Part shown: in pieces, positions 1 to 48,987 of the stretch
Numbering within the stretch: the stretch's first letter is position 1
Layout: each line of letters starts with the position of its first letter
Virus record (IMG/VR): IMGVR_UViG_3300018080_000123
Coordinates: 1 to 64,000 of that record
DNA from: a virus
Length of the DNA: 64,000 nt
Reading direction: 5' to 3' (one strand)
Notes under the pieces: generated by a model
Database searches by the model: none
The model's input: the letters and a program-made list of their open reading frames with translations, nothing else
What the model was told of the DNA's origin: nothing
Translations under genes and position numbers: made by a program

Positions 1-3000
1 CCCGTAGCTATAGCATAATTATTTGTAGCTCCTGTTATACCTCCGACATATAAGCCATATTTATTAATACCAGTATCTGCGCTACAAGAATCAACTCTCA
101 TAGCCGCATAATATGTAACTTCCACATCACCGACATCGGTAAACAGTGCCGCTTTGACCCTAACTCCCGCGTAACCGTTTGAATTTGTGTATGTATATGT
201 ATATCCGCTTCCAACATCAAACCTCATATCAACATGGACGCCATTGAATCCGTAAGCAGAAGTATCTGTCACATTAGCATTAACTTCTCGTTCAAAAAGA
301 AATCCACCAGCAGCAATTGATGAGCCTGAAACTGCTATATCTGACGATTCGTTAAGACCAACAGATAAGAGATGTTTTCCGCTAGCCGCACTTGAATCGC
401 TATATGTTTTTTGCGCACCAAGCATAAAATTGCCAAATCCAGACGGTACCCCTGTTGGGCTAGGTCCAACTAAAACCTTACCTTCAAAATAGTTGGTGGA
501 ATCACCTTCAACGTAAAGCTGATAATTATTAGTAGCCCCGCTCATACTCCCAATACGGAGGCCGTATTTATTTATACCAGTTACCACGGAATCAGAATGA
601 ATATAGATACCATGCATATTGGAAACAGCTAACGATCCGCCACCAGAAAGCGACACTTGAGGCACTCTAATTGCTGCCATTCCCGTTGAAGCAAGCAGCG
701 TGTATGTTTTCGTTGAAGCAACATCATAAATGCGAGAAAGATACATGTTTTGAATAGCGCCCAAACCACCAGCTGGCGCGTCAGTAACATCATCAGTAAT
801 TGTACGTTTAAATCTAGAATAAATAGAACAATTGCTTCCAGAAGTTAGAGCATTATTTGTGTTCAGTTCTAGATTTATAGTAGCGCCAATCTGAATTCCC
901 GAGGCGGTTCCACTATATGTTTTATGAACGGATAGCTTTTCTCCATCGCTAATAACTCCATTCAAATCCCCAACACGGACTGCTCCACCAAAATAGTTAT
1001 CGTTTCCTGCGTAAGATTGATAGATACCATAGTTATTTGTAGCTCCCCAGATCTGATCAATATACATTGCATATTTGTTTGTACCGGTATCGAGATGAGT
1101 GTTACTACTAATAACGAGATAAGCAAAATGATCAAAATCTACAGTCCCCGGCGTGCTATTATCATTAACGGGGGCCTGGATATTAATGGTACAGGGCATT
1201 GTCCCTGCAGTAGAGTTATTATTTGTAAGAGTAACCCCAGTTGGGACATTATATCTACTACGAAGTGCTAATACCCTGTCTCTTCCGGTATCTGTTTGAT
1301 TTGAAGTTATTGTTCTATAGTGTTCAAGACCTAATGTATCATGCGTACTTGAAACTGTTCCATTAATAGTACTATACCCGCGAATCATGGCAGCCGCGAA
1401 AGAACCGCCACCTGAATATGTTTCTGTAACGTAAAGTATTTCATTGCTTCCATAGGCACTGGTTGATCCAATTCTTACCGGACCTCCAATATAACTTGGA
1501 ATGGTTGTGCTGGAACTATAAATTTGCCAGTTATTGGTAGCTCCGCTTTGAGTTCCAACATAAATACCATATTTATTTGTTCCAGTATCCAACGAGGAGT
1601 CTTGAATACGAATTCCAGAAAAATCATTTATATCGAGAATTCCGCTACCATCATTTATCGGGCCATAAACAAATAGACCATTCCAACCATAAGCCCCAGT
1701 ACAGGAATAAGTTTGAGCAGACGCAATATTGAATCTACAGGCTGCAGCATTTGCCGCCCAATATCCGCCAGTATCGGTTACGCTGGCTGTTATATTTCTG
1801 CGAATTCGAGAATATATACCAGTATTTGAGTTTGCAGTATAGGCATTATCTGAATCAAAATAAGCCTGAATAGCAATAGCCCCGCTATTTACTCCTGTGG
1901 CAGAATCTCCAAAATTTCGAGAAGCGCTAATTATATTATTAACAAGAATCGTTGGGGTATTTATACCAACATAAAATGAACCAGCATGATAACTTGGATT
2001 AGTATTTGAAAGATAAATGCTATAGTCCCCTGTCGGATAGGTGTCAGAGACTAAAACATTATATGTTGAACCAGACCATACGTTCGGCAACCTAATAGCA
2101 GTCTTTCTATTTCCAGTCGCCACTGTACAATTCGGGAAGTAGATTCCATTGTAATTGTCGATTGACAATGTTCCAGGAGATGCTGTAGTCCCGCTCACAA
2201 CCAACTTCGAAAACACCGAACTTGAATACGTTTTTCCTGATGAAACGTAAAATATGTCCTCAAGGACCATAACACCAGCGTGACTAAAACCACCACTTTG
2301 AGTATCTGTAACATCGTCTGCTACTATGCGATCTTTTCTTATGTAAGCCGCAAAAGCAGAACCAGAGGTAAGATTATCGTCTGTTTGGAGTTTTGTATAT
2401 ACAGCTAGCCCTAGATTAGTATCGCCAGGAGTTCCGTTATAATCTCGCCTAACTCCAAGCTTTTCTGAACCAGAAAGAACCTGAGAGGAGATTCCAACTC
2501 GCAAAGTACCTTCTATGTAACTGTTTTTTATAGTTTCTAGATAAATCCCGTAATCTCCAACAAACGAAGGACTATCTGCAATAAAGGCGTTATTTGTACC
2601 GCCAGTTTGCATTACACCGCCATAGGAAATCTTATTAGTTATTGAACTACCGGCGCCCTTCGATCTATCAGCAGCCCAAAACTGTGCTAAGTAGGGCGTT
2701 GTAAAAGCGGCAGCCTCAGTTGTTATGTTTGAAAGAACACCAACCACTCTAACTGTGGCATTTGATGTAGCTTCCATCTCAGTCGCGATGCCGCCCTGAC
2801 TTGTTCCACCAAGAGGGTTTGCAGAACCTGTTCTTAGAATATAATTTGCCGATGCAGCACCGCCAACCCCCATTCTTGCTGCGAATTCTGAAGGATTGGT
2901 TGTCGAAAGATTAATCCCGTAATCGCCAGTGAATGCTATATTGTCTGCTAAGAAAGCATTATTAACGCCTGAAGTTTGCGGAACGCCAGCATAAGCAATC

Positions 3001-6000
3001 TGTCGCGTAATAGTTGATGCCGCGCCCTTACCTGGATTATAGGCATAAAACCTAGCAAATACCGGGCAAGTAAACGCTACATTATTCGTAGTAGAGTTGA
3101 CAGCGACCCCGTAAAAACTTGCTATAGCAGAAGAATTAGCAATCGTATCTACCCGGATTCCCCGTTGGTTTGTTTCTGTTGTTGAGGTATTTGTTACAAG
3201 TAATACTGCATTAATATTTGGGCTACCATCGCCAATCGCACAGCGCTTAGACCTATCAAAAGTCATAACAGGTGTGCTTAAGCTTACAGAGCCAATACAA
3301 AATTTAAGTTGATCCGAATCTTGAAAATCTTGTCCGATAATCCAACTATTACTCGGTCTACTAAATCTTATAGCAGAATAAGCAGCGCTTGATCCAGCCC
3401 CGCTAATTGATACAACTGCTTTACTATCTGCTGTATTAGAATTATTTACAACATTAAGAAAAACTGTTCCAGCATCTTCAGTTCGAGATACTGTAAAATC
3501 TCCGGCCGTATTAAAATAGCCAGAAAGTTGGGTCGTCTGTTTGAACTCAATATAATCTGGTTTAGATCCATGGGTAGGTCCATACATCCAGATATTTCCA
3601 CCGCTAGCAGATCCCGTTCCAGATGCTATTTTCAAAATACCATCGCTTGATTCACAATAAATAATCGAATCGCCAGTAGAAGACATCCCCAAACGCATCC
3701 AACGCTGGGTGGCTGATCCGCTAAAAATAGCAACTTCATATCCGCCGCCTGCAATACCTAAATAATCAGCACCGGCTCTATAAAGCCCAGTATCTGGATC
3801 AGAAGCAAATGTTATAGACGGGGCCGCAGCCGAACCATTAGGGAACTGCATAGGGCCAGCTAAATAACTTGGATTAGTTGTAGCAAGATAGATACCCCAG
3901 TCTCCTGTAAACGAAAGACTGTCTGTTAAGAGGGCATTATTAACGCCCTGAGTAGGCATCACTCCATAAAAAGCCACATCTCTTGTTATTGTGCTAGCCG
4001 CTCCTTTAGTCTTATTATAACTAGCAAATCCAACTCTAGAAGAACAAGTAAAAGAAGCATCTGCTGTTCCATGCGTGGCTACAAATCCAATAGAAGAAGT
4101 TGTGGCAGCAGAAGTAGCATTGTGTTCGACTCTCACACCTTCTTGGATAACTCCTGAAAGCGGATTGGCTTGACCAATACGAAGAATATTCGATGAGCCG
4201 TAAGTTCCGCCTAACCCAACTGTACCTGCGACTCGAAGCCAATTAGATGTCCCGCCAATATCAATGCTTCCAGCAAAATAACTCGGAGCTGTTCCTTCAG
4301 AATAAATTTGATAATTATTGGCAGCCCCCGATTGAGCTCCAATCCTTAGCCCTGTTTTTGTAGTCCCAGTATTTAATGAACTAGACTCAATACAAATTAA
4401 TGCATAATTAGTAACCGCTAGTGTTCCAGTTCCAACTAGACTTGGAGTCCCGGCATTAATTGACGAACTCCACGAAGATGAATTATTTGTATATGTTACT
4501 CCAACTGGGACTGTATAAGCTATTCCAGCACTGTGAAGCGTTCGATGATTCCCGGTATCCGCAATATCAGTTGTTATGGTTCGATATAGATTAAAACGCC
4601 CTCCACTGCGACTCCCTGCTAAAACTTCATCTGTTCCCCAAAGAGCTCTTGCCTCTAAAGCAGCGTAGTAATGCCCTGCGTCTCCAGATGGCATTACTTT
4701 ATAAACTAAAAGAGCAGCATTATCTTCGTAAAGCGGAACTGTAGTTCCAATTCTTACTGAATCTGCAAAATAACTAGGACTTGTTCCCGAACTATAAAGT
4801 TGCCAATTATTTGTAGCTCCGGTTTGAGCACCAATATAGATACCGTACTTATTTGTACCTGTATCTACCGAATCGTCATTAATGGCAATTTTTCTGTAAT
4901 CAGTATAATCAATTGCCCCGCCCCCAGCGATATTCATAGCCTCAACCCAAATATCACTCAAAATGCCAGAAGCATTTGTTACAGTTTGGCCTGCAGCGAC
5001 CGAAAACGTTTTACCAACATCAATACCGCGAATTGTATTCGTATCGGTGACTGAAGTCGTGATGGTTCTTCCACCCTTAACTTCCAATCCGACTTGACCG
5101 CTGCCAATATTAGAATCTGCAGTTTGTTCAGTTTTAATATCGACGCCATAAGCATGGCCATTCCCACTCCACAAACCGTAAACTTTCAACGGCCACCCAT
5201 CGGTAGCCGCGTCCGGAACAATTCCGATTCCCATTCCATATGGGACATAAACATGGTAATCATTTTGAAGCTTTAAAGCAGTTCCAGCCGATCCTGCATT
5301 ATAAGTCTGAAGTAGCATATGAGAGCTATTATCGGCTCCATCGCGAACAACTTGAATGGCCCCAACATTAACCTCTGCGCCAGGAATGTCGGCATCTTCA
5401 AATGTAAAGTTGATTGATCCGCCAAATCCATCGGCCATATTACCGGAGCATCTCGCTCTAGCTTCAAGAACGCGATAAACTCCAGTCGTCGCCGAACCAA
5501 CCATTTCCGCAAGAAGAGCCATATCGGTTCCACCTTCAACGTGAAGACGCGCGCTGTCGGCCGCTGCAGAGGTATTCCCAATTTTTACATTCTTATTGGC
5601 ATCAATAAGCTTTAGATAGGTTGTATTACCAACATTAACTTCAACCTCGCTCGGCTGCGATCCGTGAGCATCTCCGTATAAACGAAACTGTCCGCCTGCA
5701 GCTGATCCAGTATCTCCCGTAATAACTAATCTTCCGGTACTGATTCCGTGAAAAATAGATACGCTAGATGCGGCTGGCATCCCCGATCCAACCTGAATTG
5801 AATTTCCAATCACCAATGCAGTGCTATCTAGACGCGGAACAGTTAAAGTTCCTTCATCGTCTAAGCGCATCAATTGGGTCCCATCTGGAGAATTCAATGT
5901 AGTCGAATTGGTTTTCCAAATGAAATCTGCAACGGTAGAATTGTTTCCATAATCAGAAATAAAATATACCGAAGCTGTTCCTTCACTAGCAATAGCAAAC

Positions 6001-7160
6001 TGCTCATCATACGCCCTAATATGAGCAGTCATTGTATTATCAGTAATCTGAAGATCAGATCCTTCGTCGCTACTAACAACCTTTAACGGGGCATCTCCGG
6101 CCGACGTTATTACCATTCCCAATGCGGTTAAAATTGCAATATTGGGGTCTTTTATTAATTTTCCAGTAACTCCATCAAATACTGGAATTGAATTGTCTAC
6201 TGAAACTGCCGGGCCTTGCACGTCTCCTGCCGCTGAAGTATCAATTGAAACCCACGCTCCATTCAAATATAATAGAAGAGCATGATCTCCTGTATTATCA
6301 TAGTAGAGATCTCCATTAGTAGGAACCCCCGGAGCTGCTCCCTGAGGAGTTAACGAAAGATATGTTCCGACAGTTACATTTCCTGTAGTGAGGACTTGAT
6401 CTCCAAATCTTACCTTCCCTGTATTAGTATAAATCGCGTAATTATTTGTTCCGCCTGCAATTGTTCCAACATAAAGCCCATATTTATTGGTAACGCCTAC
6501 GACCGAATTTGCTTTAATATAAGCCGCGGCGGCATGAGAGATAGCTAAACTACCAGAGCCGGCATTTTCAATTCCATTAAGAACTAAATCGACCACACCC
6601 ATAGTCCCGTCACTATGAGTATAAGTAACCACTCCTCCATCTGGATCTAAAACGGATTTTAACTCTAAAGCTGTTAAAATTCCGGCAGTGTCTTCAGTGC
6701 TGGTAGATACTTTACGTCTAATTTCAGAGTAAATTGTAGATTGATTTACTGTATTGGCTGAATCTGAATCAAGCAATAGTTTGGCGCCAATAGTTGTATC
6801 TACTGATCCAGCTGTTGCTTCGTTGTAAGCAGTTAGTTTTTCGCTATTTCCTTTTACTGTGGTAGTCAAGCCAATTCGTAAAGCATTTCCTCCTGAATTG
6901 GTCGGAGCGACGCCAATACCAATATTTCCCGATTCAAGATTAACTACAAGAATATTATCAACTTTAGTGGAATCATCGTCTTTAACGGAATACAATTTAT
7001 AGTTTCCGCCAGATACGACTTCGCGAATCGTTTTTTTATCAAGCGCGCCACTTAGATCTTTTATTGTGCGCAAAGGATCTGCGACACTAGTCTGAGTAAT
7101 ATTCCGTTGGACCAGTAAGTCTCTTTCTACGGTCTGATCGCCTTTAAGCTTTCTAGGCAT
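1..7160 (-). CDS. Giant modular tail fiber / adhesin, C-terminus outside window
   Basis: One uninterrupted frame reads from an ATG at 7160 (preceded by a TAGGAG ribosome site) to the left edge, giving at least 2386 residues; I spot-checked the frame near 7.1, 4.0 and 0.1 kb. The first 20 residues carry a KGDxTVxRDLLVQRN segment that resembles the start of the protein at 7559..8194. The rest is built of modules of roughly 160 residues. One class contains a 'NKYGxYVGxxxGATNNYxIY' unit, seen near 20-90, 520-590, 1030-1095, 1525-1590, 4313-4375, 4800-4865 and 6430-6500. A second class contains 'GDYGIYLSTTNPSYxAG', near 2010-2050, 2530-2560, 2900-2940 and 3880-3910. Such GIY/NNY repeats are typical of long fibrous phage or environmental surface proteins that often end in an S74 intramolecular chaperone; that end is not in view. 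It is the last gene after the baseplate block, so a host-contact fiber is likely. Confidence 0.85.
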   Translation of the reverse strand, partial: MPRKLKGDQTVERDLLVQRNITQTSVADPLRTIKDLSGALDKKTIREVVSGGNYKLYSVKDDDSTKVDNILVVNLESGNIGIGVAPTNSGGNALRIGLTTTVKGNSEKLTAYNEATAGSVDTTIGAKLLLDSDSANTVNQSTIYSEIRRKVSTSTEDTAGILTALELKSVLDPDGGVVTYTHSDGTMGVVDLVLNGIENAGSGSLAISHAAAAYIKANSVVGVTNKYGLYVGTIAGGTNNYAIYTNTGKVRFGDQVLTTGNVTVGTYLSLTPQGAAPGVPTNGDLYYDNTGDHALLLYLNGAWVSIDTSAAGDVQGPAVSVDNSIPVFDGVTGKLIKDPNIAILTALGMVITSAGDAPLKVVSSDEGSDLQITDNTMTAHIRAYDEQFAIASEGTASVYFISDYGNNSTVADFIWKTNSTTLNSPDGTQLMRLDDEGTLTVPRLDSTALVIGNSIQVGSGMPAASSVSIFHGISTGRLVITGDTGSAAGGQFRLYGDAHGSQPSEVEVNVGNTTYLKLIDANKNVKIGNTSAAADSARLHVEGGTDMALLAEMVGSATTGVYRVLEARARCSGNMADGFGGSINFTFEDADIPGAEVNVGAIQVVRDGADNSSHMLLQTYNAGSAGTALKLQNDYHVYVPYGMGIGIVPDAATDGWPLKVYGLWSGNGHAYGVDIKTEQTADSNIGSGQVGLEVKGGRTITTSVTDTNTIRGIDVGKTFSVAAGQTVTNASGILSDIWVEAMNIAGGGAIDYTDYRKIAINDDSVDTGTNKYGIYIGAQTGATNNWQLYSSGTSPSYFADSVRIGTTVPLYEDNAALLVYKVMPSGDAGHYYAALEARALWGTDEVLAGSRSGGRFNLYRTITTDIADTGNHRTLHSAGIAYTVPVGVTYTNNSSSWSSSINAGTPSLVGTGTLAVTNYALICIESSSLNTGTTKTGLRIGAQSGAANNYQIYSEGTAPSYFAGSIDIGGTSNWLRVAGTVGLGGTYGSSNILRIGQANPLSGVIQEGVRVEHNATSAATTSSIGFVATHGTADASFTCSSRVGFASYNKTKGAASTITRDVAFYGVMPTQGVNNALLTDSLSFTGDWGIYLATTNPSYLAGPMQFPNGSAAAPSITFASDPDTGLYRAGADYLGIAGGGYEVAIFSGSATQRWMRLGMSSTGDSIIYCESSDGILKIASGTGSASGGNIWMYGPTHGSKPDYIEFKQTTQLSGYFNTAGDFTVSRTEDAGTVFLNVVNNSNTADSKAVVSISGAGSSAAYSAIRFSRPSNSWIIGQDFQDSDQLKFCIGSVSLSTPVMTFDRSKRCAIGDGSPNINAVLLVTNTSTTETNQRGIRVDTIANSSAIASFYGVAVNSTTNNVAFTCPVFARFYAYNPGKGAASTITRQIAYAGVPQTSGVNNAFLADNIAFTGDYGINLSTTNPSEFAARMGVGGAASANYILRTGSANPLGGTSQGGIATEMEATSNATVRVVGVLSNITTEAAAFTTPYLAQFWAADRSKGAGSSITNKISYGGVMQTGGTNNAFIADSPSFVGDYGIYLETIKNSYIEGTLRVGISSQVLSGSEKLGVRRDYNGTPGDTNLGLAVYTKLQTDDNLTSGSAFAAYIRKDRIVADDVTDTQSGGFSHAGVMVLEDIFYVSSGKTYSSSVFSKLVVSGTTASPGTLSIDNYNGIYFPNCTVATGNRKTAIRLPNVWSGSTYNVLVSDTYPTGDYSIYLSNTNPSYHAGSFYVGINTPTILVNNIISASRNFGDSATGVNSGAIAIQAYFDSDNAYTANSNTGIYSRIRRNITASVTDTGGYWAANAAACRFNIASAQTYSCTGAYGWNGLFVYGPINDGSGILDINDFSGIRIQDSSLDTGTNKYGIYVGTQSGATNNWQIYSSSTTIPSYIGGPVRIGSTSAYGSNEILYVTETYSGGGSFAAAMIRGYSTINGTVSSTHDTLGLEHYRTITSNQTDTGRDRVLALRSRYNVPTGVTLTNNNSTAGTMPCTINIQAPVNDNSTPGTVDFDHFAYLVISSNTHLDTGTNKYAMYIDQIWGATNNYGIYQSYAGNDNYFGGAVRVGDLNGVISDGEKLSVHKTYSGTASGIQIGATINLELNTNNALTSGSNCSIYSRFKRTITDDVTDAPAGGLGAIQNMYLSRIYDVASTKTYTLLASTGMAAIRVPQVSLSGGGSLAVSNMHGIYIHSDSVVTGINKYGLRIGSMSGATNNYQLYVEGDSTNYFEGKVLVGPSPTGVPSGFGNFMLGAQKTYSDSSAASGKHLLSVGLNESSDIAVSGSSIAAGGFLFEREVNANVTDTSAYGFNGVHVDMRFDVGSGYTYTYTNSNGYAGVRVKAALFTDVGDVEVTYYAAMRVDSCSADTGINKYGLYVGGITGATNNYAIAT

Positions 7161-44268: not shown

Positions 44269-44290
44269 TGTCCTCTCCTCCTTAAAAAGG

Positions 44291-44391
44291 GCGCTGGGGG
44301 TCTGGTTAGCTGCTAGCTACTCTGAGCTTTATACCCTGTGCACTTACCGGGTCTAGAACCCGGGTTGGGCGAGCCAGCCTCGCCCCAGCGC
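44291..44391 (-). other. GC-rich structured intergenic element
   Basis: GCGCTGGGG at 44291-44299 pairs with CCCCAGCGC at 44383-44391. Inside lie two hairpins: 44367-44373 with 44379-44385 (7 bp, loop CCAGC) and 44347-44352 with 44358-44363 (loop CTAGA plus one pair). The 180-nt gap (44269-44449) has no convincing gene. Read on the minus strand one hairpin loop is TTCTAGA, anticodon-like (CTA), but the cloverleaf does not close. It may be an ncRNA or a regulatory leader of the lipoprotein gene. Confidence 0.4.
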
Positions 44392-44449
44392 TATGTCTTG
44401 TACATTACTCCCGACGGAGCGGCTTTTATAATACCCACTTGGGGCGAAT

Positions 44450-45863: not shown

Positions 45864-45881
45864 TCCCTTTCCTTTTTCTGT

Positions 45882-46009
45882 GTACTCGGCCCGATGGACG
45901 TGTTAGGACGGCCATCGGGTGGACGTATTCGCAGAGGCCATAGAGAGTGGCGGTTTTCTATGGCTTACCCTAACACCTAACCGTCCGATCCGCCTACAGA
46001 CCCGAGCAC
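45882..46009 (-). ncRNA. Structured RNA candidate with two possible pseudoknots
   Basis: The 169-nt gap between the PRPP synthetase and the DUF5658-like gene has no gene but a closed multi-stem design. Outer stem: 45882-45889 with 46002-46009 (8 bp; the only mismatch on the plus strand becomes a G-U pair in minus-strand RNA). Hairpin 1: 45890-45897/45912-45919, perfect 8 bp. Hairpin 2: 45937-45944/45957-45964, perfect 8 bp. Loop 1 (45900-45907) pairs with 45969-45976 (8 bp), or its 3' half (45906-45911) with 45981-45986 (6 bp), so two states are possible. Loop 2 (45949-45953) pairs with 45990-45994 (5 bp). I know no RNA family that fits. It could be a free ncRNA or a leader of the gene at 45863. 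Confidence 0.55.
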
Positions 46010-46032
46010 TATATTTGAGCACACGCCTCCGC

Positions 46033-47001
46033 TTATTTATAGTCATACAAATCACCTATTGATGTATCGGTATGGACACACGAAATCGCCTGAGCAAGAA
46101 GTCTAGCTACCGATATAATCTGAATCTTATCAGAGTTTTCGATTCGTTCTTCAAGCTTAATTGTATCGGTTATAATTAATTCTGTTAATGATTCGGACCG
46201 TTCTATTCTATCCATTGTCCATCCGGAAAGTACCGGATGGGTAACTGCTGCCCTTACATCTTCCGCTCCTTTTTCTTTCAACACGTCGGCCGCTAAAAGC
46301 AGCGTTCCGGCCGTATCACACATATCATCAAGAATAAAAATATCTCTTCCCTTCACATCTCCAATAATCTCCATCGTCTCAATTTTATTATGCTCATTCC
46401 GCCTCTTACTCATCACCGCCAAAGGGACACCTAAATGTTTAGCAAATATGTGAGCCCTCCCCGCGCCTCCAGCATCTGGCGAAACAATTGTAAGCTTATC
46501 GTCCCATGAATAGCGCTCTTCAATGTATTGAACAAATAATGGGCCGGCTAAAAGATGATCAACTGGAATGTTGAAGAAACCTTGGATTTGCGGTGAATGA
46601 AGATCAATAGTAATCACTCGATCTGCTCCTGAAACCGTGATCAGATCTGCTACTAATTTAGCTGTGATAGCTGTTCGAGGGGAAGTCTTGCGATCTTGTC
46701 TTGCATACCCGAAGTAAGGAATTACAGCCGTCACTCTACCAGCTGAAGCTCTCTTTAGGGCATCGATTATGATTAGAAGCTCCATTAAGGTTTCATTGGC
46801 AGGCGAGCTAGTGGATTGAACAACGAACACATCCTCTCCTCTCACGCTTTCCTCTACCTTTACAAATAACTCTTTGTCGTCGAAGCGCCTTCCCGACATC
46901 TGGCCCAGAGTAACGCAACGACTAAGCAAAACGCTCAAATCCACAACTACACCGCTAGCAAGACTCATGGAAGCAGTTCCACAGAAAACTTTGATACCCA
47001 T
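46033..47001 (-). CDS. prs: Ribose-phosphate pyrophosphokinase (PRPP synthetase)
   Basis: 322 residues, the usual length. Family motifs are intact: 'VIPYFGYARQDRKTSPR' (95-111), 'ITIDLHSPQIQGFFNIP' (130-146), 'VSPDAGGAGRA' (173-183) and the PRPP-binding loop 'ILDDMCDTAGTL' (223-234). It makes PRPP from ribose 5-phosphate and ATP, feeding nucleotide and NAD synthesis. Phages that carry prs often pair it with a nicotinamide phosphoribosyltransferase for NAD salvage; no such gene is in this window. Its neighbour in the operon is a radical SAM enzyme. Confidence 0.92.
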   Translation of the reverse strand: MGIKVFCGTASMSLASGVVVDLSVLLSRCVTLGQMSGRRFDDKELFVKVEESVRGEDVFVVQSTSSPANETLMELLIIIDALKRASAGRVTAVIPYFGYARQDRKTSPRTAITAKLVADLITVSGADRVITIDLHSPQIQGFFNIPVDHLLAGPLFVQYIEERYSWDDKLTIVSPDAGGAGRAHIFAKHLGVPLAVMSKRRNEHNKIETMEIIGDVKGRDIFILDDMCDTAGTLLLAADVLKEKGAEDVRAAVTHPVLSGWTMDRIERSESLTELIITDTIKLEERIENSDKIQIISVARLLAQAISCVHTDTSIGDLYDYK

Positions 47002-47010
47002 TTCTTCTCC

Positions 47011-47835
47011 TCAAAAAATAATACTTGCCGGAGTATCCCAGCTTGTATACATATGTCCATCTTCAGCAAAAATCAAGCTTCGGATATCATTTGTTCTATT
47101 ACAGCTTTGCATACACGTGTCAATATGCATCACCGAAATTCCTTCGTAATCATAGACGCGCCCGCCATGGACCATCTCGCGCACCAAATCAAGACCTGCC
47201 TCATTCATTTGCTCTACATATTTATAATACAAGCTTTGTGGGGCAAATTTTTCAATCCACCCTCTAGTCCCCCAACCTCCCGACATACGTTGAGGACACA
47301 TAATTCGTCGCAACGAGAATTGTCTAACCTTTGTTCGCTTACACTCCTCAATCATTCTTTGAAAAGTATCCTGAGCATTAAGAATGCTCGTTACATTCAT
47401 CGCCACTCTAACTGTTATTCCTTCCTTATCGAGATAGTCAAACAACTTCTCGAACTTCTGAAAGTCATTCATACAATCAAACGAGAAAGCAACAACATTG
47501 AACTTGAGGTCGCTAAACTGCGTAAGAAATTTAACATCATTCTCCTCGAATCGATTCAAGAGACGAAGTCCGTTTGTTTGGACTTCGAGAGGAAAATCGT
47601 TGAACTGAGTGGTAAAATAGAACAAATCATCCCAGTTCATAAAAGGCTCGCCCTTGCCAGTAATCAAAACACACGCCACACCGGCAAGCTTAGCCATCAT
47701 ACGAACCTTACGAATATTTACGCCCATACGATAGATGTTAGGCGTAACTTCTGGAGTCATATTACTTACGCAATATGCACACTTCTTATCACATCCCTTA
47801 TTCGGCAGACAAATCGTCAGACTTTGCGCCTTCAT
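47011..47835 (-). CDS. Radical SAM enzyme
   Basis: 274 residues. The [4Fe-4S] motif is C-x3-C-x2-C at Cys15, Cys19 and Cys22 (NKGCDKKCAYC). 'LITGKGEPFMNWDD' (58-70) gives the GGE-like SAM-binding strand, and 'PLEVQTNGLRLLNRF' follows. A later cluster 'IDTCMQSCNRTND' could hold an auxiliary cluster or substrate. The family is not obvious: the spacing excludes QueE-type CX14C. With PRPP synthetase beside it, a nucleotide or cofactor substrate is a reasonable guess. Confidence 0.8.
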   Translation of the reverse strand: MKAQSLTICLPNKGCDKKCAYCVSNMTPEVTPNIYRMGVNIRKVRMMAKLAGVACVLITGKGEPFMNWDDLFYFTTQFNDFPLEVQTNGLRLLNRFEENDVKFLTQFSDLKFNVVAFSFDCMNDFQKFEKLFDYLDKEGITVRVAMNVTSILNAQDTFQRMIEECKRTKVRQFSLRRIMCPQRMSGGWGTRGWIEKFAPQSLYYKYVEQMNEAGLDLVREMVHGGRVYDYEGISVMHIDTCMQSCNRTNDIRSLIFAEDGHMYTSWDTPASIIF

Positions 47836-48914: not shown

Positions 48915-48987
48915 CTCCGGGGATAGGATTCGAACCTATATATTTCTGATTAACAGTCAGACTCATTGCCAGTTATGATACCCCGGA
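48915..48987 (-). tRNA. tRNA-Asn (GTT)
   Basis: A clean cloverleaf: acceptor TCCGGGG/CCCCGGA, D-stem TCAT/ATGA with loop AACTGGCA, anticodon stem TCTGA/TCAGA with loop CTGTTAA (anticodon GTT, positions 48954-48952), a short variable region, and T-arm ATAGG-TTCGAAT-CCTAT. The discriminator is G and CCA is not encoded. The 3' end of the nuclease gene at 48950..49399 runs 38 nt into the tRNA gene. Confidence 0.95.

Follow-up and report, generated by a model that had tools for sequence, protein, structure and literature searches.

The region considered here lies in a window of 64,000 nucleotides, positions 1 to 64,000 of IMG/VR record IMGVR_UViG_3300018080_000123, from the 113.6-kb genome of an uncultured tailed phage. 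The genome carries tail-sheath and baseplate genes, a SPO1-like capsid protein (about 31% identity to SPO1-group phages), and its own polymerase III alpha, chaperonin and 7-deazaguanine genes. On the minus strand of the window, a gene for PRPP synthetase (prs) is followed by an intergenic stretch and then by a gene for a DUF5658 membrane protein. The intergenic RNA has a GC content of 59%, compared with near 42% in the surrounding region. The genes and the parts of the fold are listed below, in the order of leftward reading; RNA position i is window 46033 - i, for i = 1-169, and L003 is the relative introduced further on.

46033-47001, minus strand: PRPP synthetase gene (prs), upstream of the RNA (NF002320, E 2e-125)
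45864-46032, minus strand: the whole constrained element, all intergenic DNA between the prs stop codon and the DUF5658 ATG (comparison with L003)
46017-46032, minus strand: 5' flank, invariant, with possible P0 and P1' strands
45882-46009, minus strand: P1, outer stem of 8 bp with one G-U (46009-46002/45889-45882), enclosing the core
45984-46000, minus strand: P2, short hairpin of 4 bp (46000-45997/45987-45984) whose loop carries the kissing strand (alignment folding)
45949-45994, minus strand: loop-2 pairing of the P2 loop with the P3 loop, 5 bp (45994-45990/45953-45949)
45900-45976, minus strand: long pseudoknot of 10 bp, linker 45976-45967 with P4 loop 45909-45900
45937-45964, minus strand: P3, 8 Watson-Crick bp (45964-45957/45944-45937), 12-nt loop
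45920-45936, minus strand: J3/4, 17-nt joining strand CUCUGCGAAUACGUCCA, invariant (0/17 changes)
45890-45919, minus strand: P4, 8 Watson-Crick bp (45919-45912/45897-45890), 14-nt loop
45873-45865, minus strand: Shine-Dalgarno-like AGGAAAGGG ahead of the DUF5658 gene
45863-45561, minus strand: DUF5658 membrane protein, downstream gene (PF18902, E 4e-6)
46032-46025 with 45938-45931, minus strand: P0, candidate alternative helix of 8 bp, present in both phages with no change
46023-46017 with 45887-45881, minus strand: P1', candidate alternative helix of 7 bp that excludes P1, present in both phages, its only change being G-U to G-C

Several other features of this genome deserve mention. A 7-deazaguanine cluster at genome positions 91496-94898 (L094:7496-10898) holds QueF, FolE2, a phosphoribosyltransferase-like protein and QueC, together with a weak DpdA-like transglycosylase match, and the radical SAM gene at window 47011-47835 is weakly QueE-like. 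As judged from these predicted proteins, the cluster and the radical SAM gene suggest modified DNA or tRNA. At the left end of the window, an open frame with repeats, at least 2386 codons long (3-7160, minus strand), runs past the window's end and adjoins tail genes; it is probably a giant tail or fibre protein.

An earlier note, made from this one sequence, had drawn an outer stem, two 8-bp hairpins (its hairpin 1 is P4 and its hairpin 2 is P3) and pairings of both hairpin loops, all in the minus-strand direction. These helices are all present at the minus-strand positions listed above. Measured against shuffles, the folding z-score is -2.7 for the minus strand, which thus folds better than its shuffles, and -0.9 for the plus strand, which does not. 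Two disjoint 8-bp Watson-Crick hairpins were obtained in 0 of 5000 dinucleotide shuffles, and an 8-bp partner for loop 1 within 68 nt upstream in 1.2% of shuffles. A 5-bp partner for loop 2, in contrast, arose in 75%, so that the loop-2 pairing rests on covariation and not on its mere presence. One sequence by itself thus argues for both hairpins and for the long loop pairing, but support for the loop-2 pairing had to come from elsewhere.

Such support is provided by a related phage. When viral contigs were searched with either protein, PRPP synthetase or DUF5658, two contigs came out on top both times. One is identical to the window at this locus; the other, L003 (IMGVR_UViG_3300018080_000170), is distinct, with protein identities of 92% for prs and 77% for DUF5658. 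The order prs-RNA-DUF5658 is retained in L003 despite changed neighbours on both sides: two genes are missing from those places, the radical SAM gene that precedes prs and the 45239-45526 gene that comes next after DUF5658. The latter is located elsewhere in L003 (L003:3073-3354, 63% identity), suggesting that small genes shift around a conserved prs-RNA-DUF5658 unit.

Because the helices had been drawn from one sequence, L003 constitutes an independent test of them. The alignment of the core is gapless and contains 16 changes over 128 nt, and the five helices drawn beforehand show 0 broken pairs and three double compensatory changes: one from C-G to U-A in P3, another of the same kind in the loop-2 pairing, and one from G-C to A-U in P4. 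Four one-sided changes all stay paired in L003 (wobble-compatible), including U-A to U-G in P4 and G-C to G-U in the loop-2 pairing. In P1, the mismatch that the earlier note had read as a G-U possible only in minus-strand RNA becomes G-C. The long pseudoknot, proposed as 8 bp (45976-45969 with 45907-45900), is kept and really extends to 10 bp by one G-U and one U-G; its 8 bp are identical in both phages, and the tenth pair goes from U-G to C-G. Read as plus-strand RNA, the window's P1 wobble and the L003 wobbles of P4 and the loop-2 pairing would turn into C-A mismatches, which fixes the strand as minus.

When the same mutations are placed at random, the probability of no break together with at least three double changes is about 1e-5, or 5e-6 if the 10-bp pseudoknot is used, and sliding the helix partners leaves 32-45% paired instead of 100%. 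That a GC-rich spacer folds in this way by chance might still be considered, given that only two distinct sequences make up the covariation depth and that background covarying helices occur. In the flanking coding DNA, too, isolated helices of 7-8 bp covary, most of them containing G-U pairs, and a two-sequence shuffle control was weak (69/500 and 30/500). We regard chance as very improbable in view of the pre-specified structure, with its 0 breaks and 3 compensations at P of about 1e-5, and of a noncoding constraint described below. Comparison of the two phages shows that selection keeps a predicted minus-strand pseudoknotted fold, with P1 around P3 and P4 and both loop pairings; three of its pre-specified helices carry double changes, and P2 adds further covariation.

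P2 undergoes a G-C to C-G double transversion in L003, plus U-G to C-G. We consider this hairpin likely and not shown, since it was found only after seeing L003 and since two registers fit, the second (45999-45996/45984-45981) suiting the L003 changes about equally well. As the P2 loop contains the 5' strand of the loop-2 pairing, that pairing would be a loop-loop kiss. From the alignment, the likely architecture has P2, P3 and P4 inside P1, with the P2 and P3 loops kissing and the P4 loop paired with the P2-P3 linker; P1-P2-P3-P4 would thus likely meet in a four-way junction, with two tertiary helices closing it. Two other nested helices of the single-sequence minimum-energy fold, 46001-45996/45991-45986 and 45986-45982/45925-45921, are lost in L003 and were rejected.

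Constraint is visible along the whole spacer. From stop codon to ATG, 17 of 169 positions differ between the window and L003, distributed as 0/23 in the 5' flank, 16/128 (12.5%) in the core and 1/18 in the 3' flank before the ATG. Of the fourfold sites, 44% are changed in prs and 61% in DUF5658, which places the noncoding constraint 3-5 fold below fourfold sites. On this comparison, selection on the putative intergenic RNA is clear.

Could this constraint reflect a small protein? A 39-codon minus-strand frame, from GTG 46022 to TAA 45903, is open in both phages without an indel, and GGAGG precedes its GTG, at a spacing of only 3 nt. Its codon changes, however, comprise 11 nonsynonymous and 1 synonymous, so coding does not account for the constraint; the flanking genes show the opposite (25 vs 105 and 22 vs 30), and the frame thus shows no synonymous excess. 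Most of the codon changes are instead compensatory or wobble pairs of the RNA. We therefore view a small protein as the least credible of the readings weighed here, in keeping with the original view of the region as not protein-coding.

The overlap of two possible loop-1 pairings had originally been interpreted as a two-state switch. The shorter of these (6 bp, 45986-45981) exists in the window and is broken in L003 by C to G at 45983, and the proposed switch loses support accordingly; what stands of the overall interpretation is a structured noncoding minus-strand RNA in which both hairpin loops pair. If the RNA does switch, P0 and P1', formed from the invariant 5' flank, would be likelier to provide the second state than the 6-bp loop pairing. 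P0 pairs the 5' flank with J3/4, and neither P0 nor P1' gains covariation support between the window and L003.

We found no close kin of this RNA among known families. Rfam 15 at gathering scores returned only a tRNA at 48915-48987 in the window, and relaxing the threshold to E 10 for the window and L003 regions yielded only chance miRNA, snoRNA and DicF matches outside the core. The leader motifs manA and wcaG are the nearest known kind. Both are cyanophage structured RNAs in likely 5' UTRs of metabolic genes, with function unproven, and manA adjoins nucleotide-synthesis genes, among others (PMC2864571). The present RNA differs in phage lineage and downstream gene and has no sequence or structure match to them, the Rfam scans giving no match to the manA (RF01745) or wcaG (RF01761) models. 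The same scans gave no match to purine, PRPP/ykkC or preQ1 riboswitch models, nor to known self-cleaving ribozyme models.

In topology only, the predicted fold recalls the purine riboswitch, with an outer stem and two hairpins with kissing loops (P1, P2, P3), but it has an extra hairpin whose loop pairs over 10 bp with the P2-P3 strand, and a very short P2. It likewise recalls, in topology only, the four-way junction and hairpin loop-joining strand pseudoknot of the SAM-I riboswitch, but pairs its P4 loop with J2/3, adds a loop-loop kiss and again lacks an Rfam match. These are resemblances and not membership.

Further relatives were sought widely. A pattern scan of viral contigs recovered only the two contigs already known, and a further scan gave 18 more matches, none homologous by model or by eye; bacterial and archaeal genomes yielded one chance repeat in a Chamaesiphon MAG. 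Scans with the capsid, polymerase, terminase and radical SAM proteins led to no further RNA homolog, nor did covariance searching of 83 loci and then of another 43 whole records. The RNA had no blastn match in phages and plasmids and no second copy in the 113.6-kb genome. Within the limits of these scans, L003 is the only distinct relative across the viral, genome, phage and plasmid collections.

Other stretches of the window that are well conserved relative to L003 (49406-49601 and 41486-41733) proved to be mostly or wholly open frames. A second noncoding stretch was also observed at 44269-44449 on the minus strand, where about 84 nt are nearly unchanged in L003. It carries a strong hairpin (GGGCGAG-GCUGG-CUCGCCC), a tRNA T-arm-like CCGGG-UUCUAGA-CCCGG, a long-range GCGCUGGGG/CCCCAGCGC stem, and a U run. 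Its sole hint in Rfam was a sub-threshold match to the tRNA-like mascRNA (E 1.2), and blastn found no match to it in phages.

Having characterized the fold, we considered what it may do. Our preferred reading, to which we assign a probability of about 0.5, is that of a phage-specific structured RNA at the leftward prs-DUF5658 junction, which would act in cis in that messenger. Leftward transcription would produce the RNA as the link between prs and DUF5658 in a message common to both genes. Sitting between the two cistrons, directly ahead of the ribosome site, it would set the translation, or the processing and decay, of the message's two halves. No minus-strand terminator was found at the locus, and promoter matches there were only at chance level, which fits read-through from prs.

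The main rival to cis action is a free, trans-acting phage noncoding RNA, processed from the prs message and acting during infection on targets or proteins of either host or phage. The domain is compact and self-contained, the single-stranded J3/4 is invariant, and there is no visible expression platform for the DUF5658 gene, all of which would suit a free RNA. The lack of an own promoter or terminator above chance argues against it, as does a constraint that covers both flanks, up to the start codon. On balance we think a free RNA unlikely, if well worth keeping in mind.

A narrower version of cis action is a metabolite-binding riboswitch for DUF5658, responding for example to PRPP, a purine nucleotide or a 7-deazaguanine. 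The junction with its loop kiss and pseudoknot resembles aptamers, alternative outer stems P1 and P1' exist, and the phage has prs and the 7-deazaguanine genes FolE2, QueC and QueF. We nevertheless find a riboswitch doubtful. No Rfam riboswitch matched even at E 10, and the locus offers neither form of expression platform: the terminator is absent, and with no conserved helix of at least 6 bp over the DUF5658 Shine-Dalgarno, the ribosome site is not hidden. Moreover, the P1/P1' exchange is without covariation, and DUF5658 is unmentioned in the literature searched. Nucleotide sensing is thinkable, the pointer to it being solely the adjoining prs, a gene that leftward transcription would cross before the RNA; the next gene after the RNA encodes the DUF5658 membrane protein.

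A self-cleaving ribozyme that would separate the prs and DUF5658 messages is a much less probable alternative. Small ribozymes typically have pseudoknots and invariant joining strands, and this RNA resembles them in these traits and in its size. It has no Rfam ribozyme match, however, and both of its loop partners lie upstream, inside the outer stem, an arrangement that to our knowledge none of the HDV-like, pistol, twister or hatchet ribozymes shares.

Setting these readings beside the cis-acting junction RNA that we favor, it is possible, though we hold this only tentatively, that the element represents a new natural class of functional RNA, be it a riboswitch, a ribozyme or a leader that binds protein, restricted to one lineage of uncultured phages. 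Such an RNA would have a four-way junction locked by a loop kiss and by a 10-bp loop-linker pseudoknot, and P0/P1', made by a competing 5' strand, as a switch. The case illustrates that one relative can provide a fair check of a fold proposed from just one sequence, and the small size of the RNA would make probing and reporter tests easy. The RNA has two pseudoknots and is supported by covariation, and it comes from a phage lineage distant from those in culture; should it prove to be a ribozyme, to sense a ligand or to serve as a control element, it would represent a new class of RNA.
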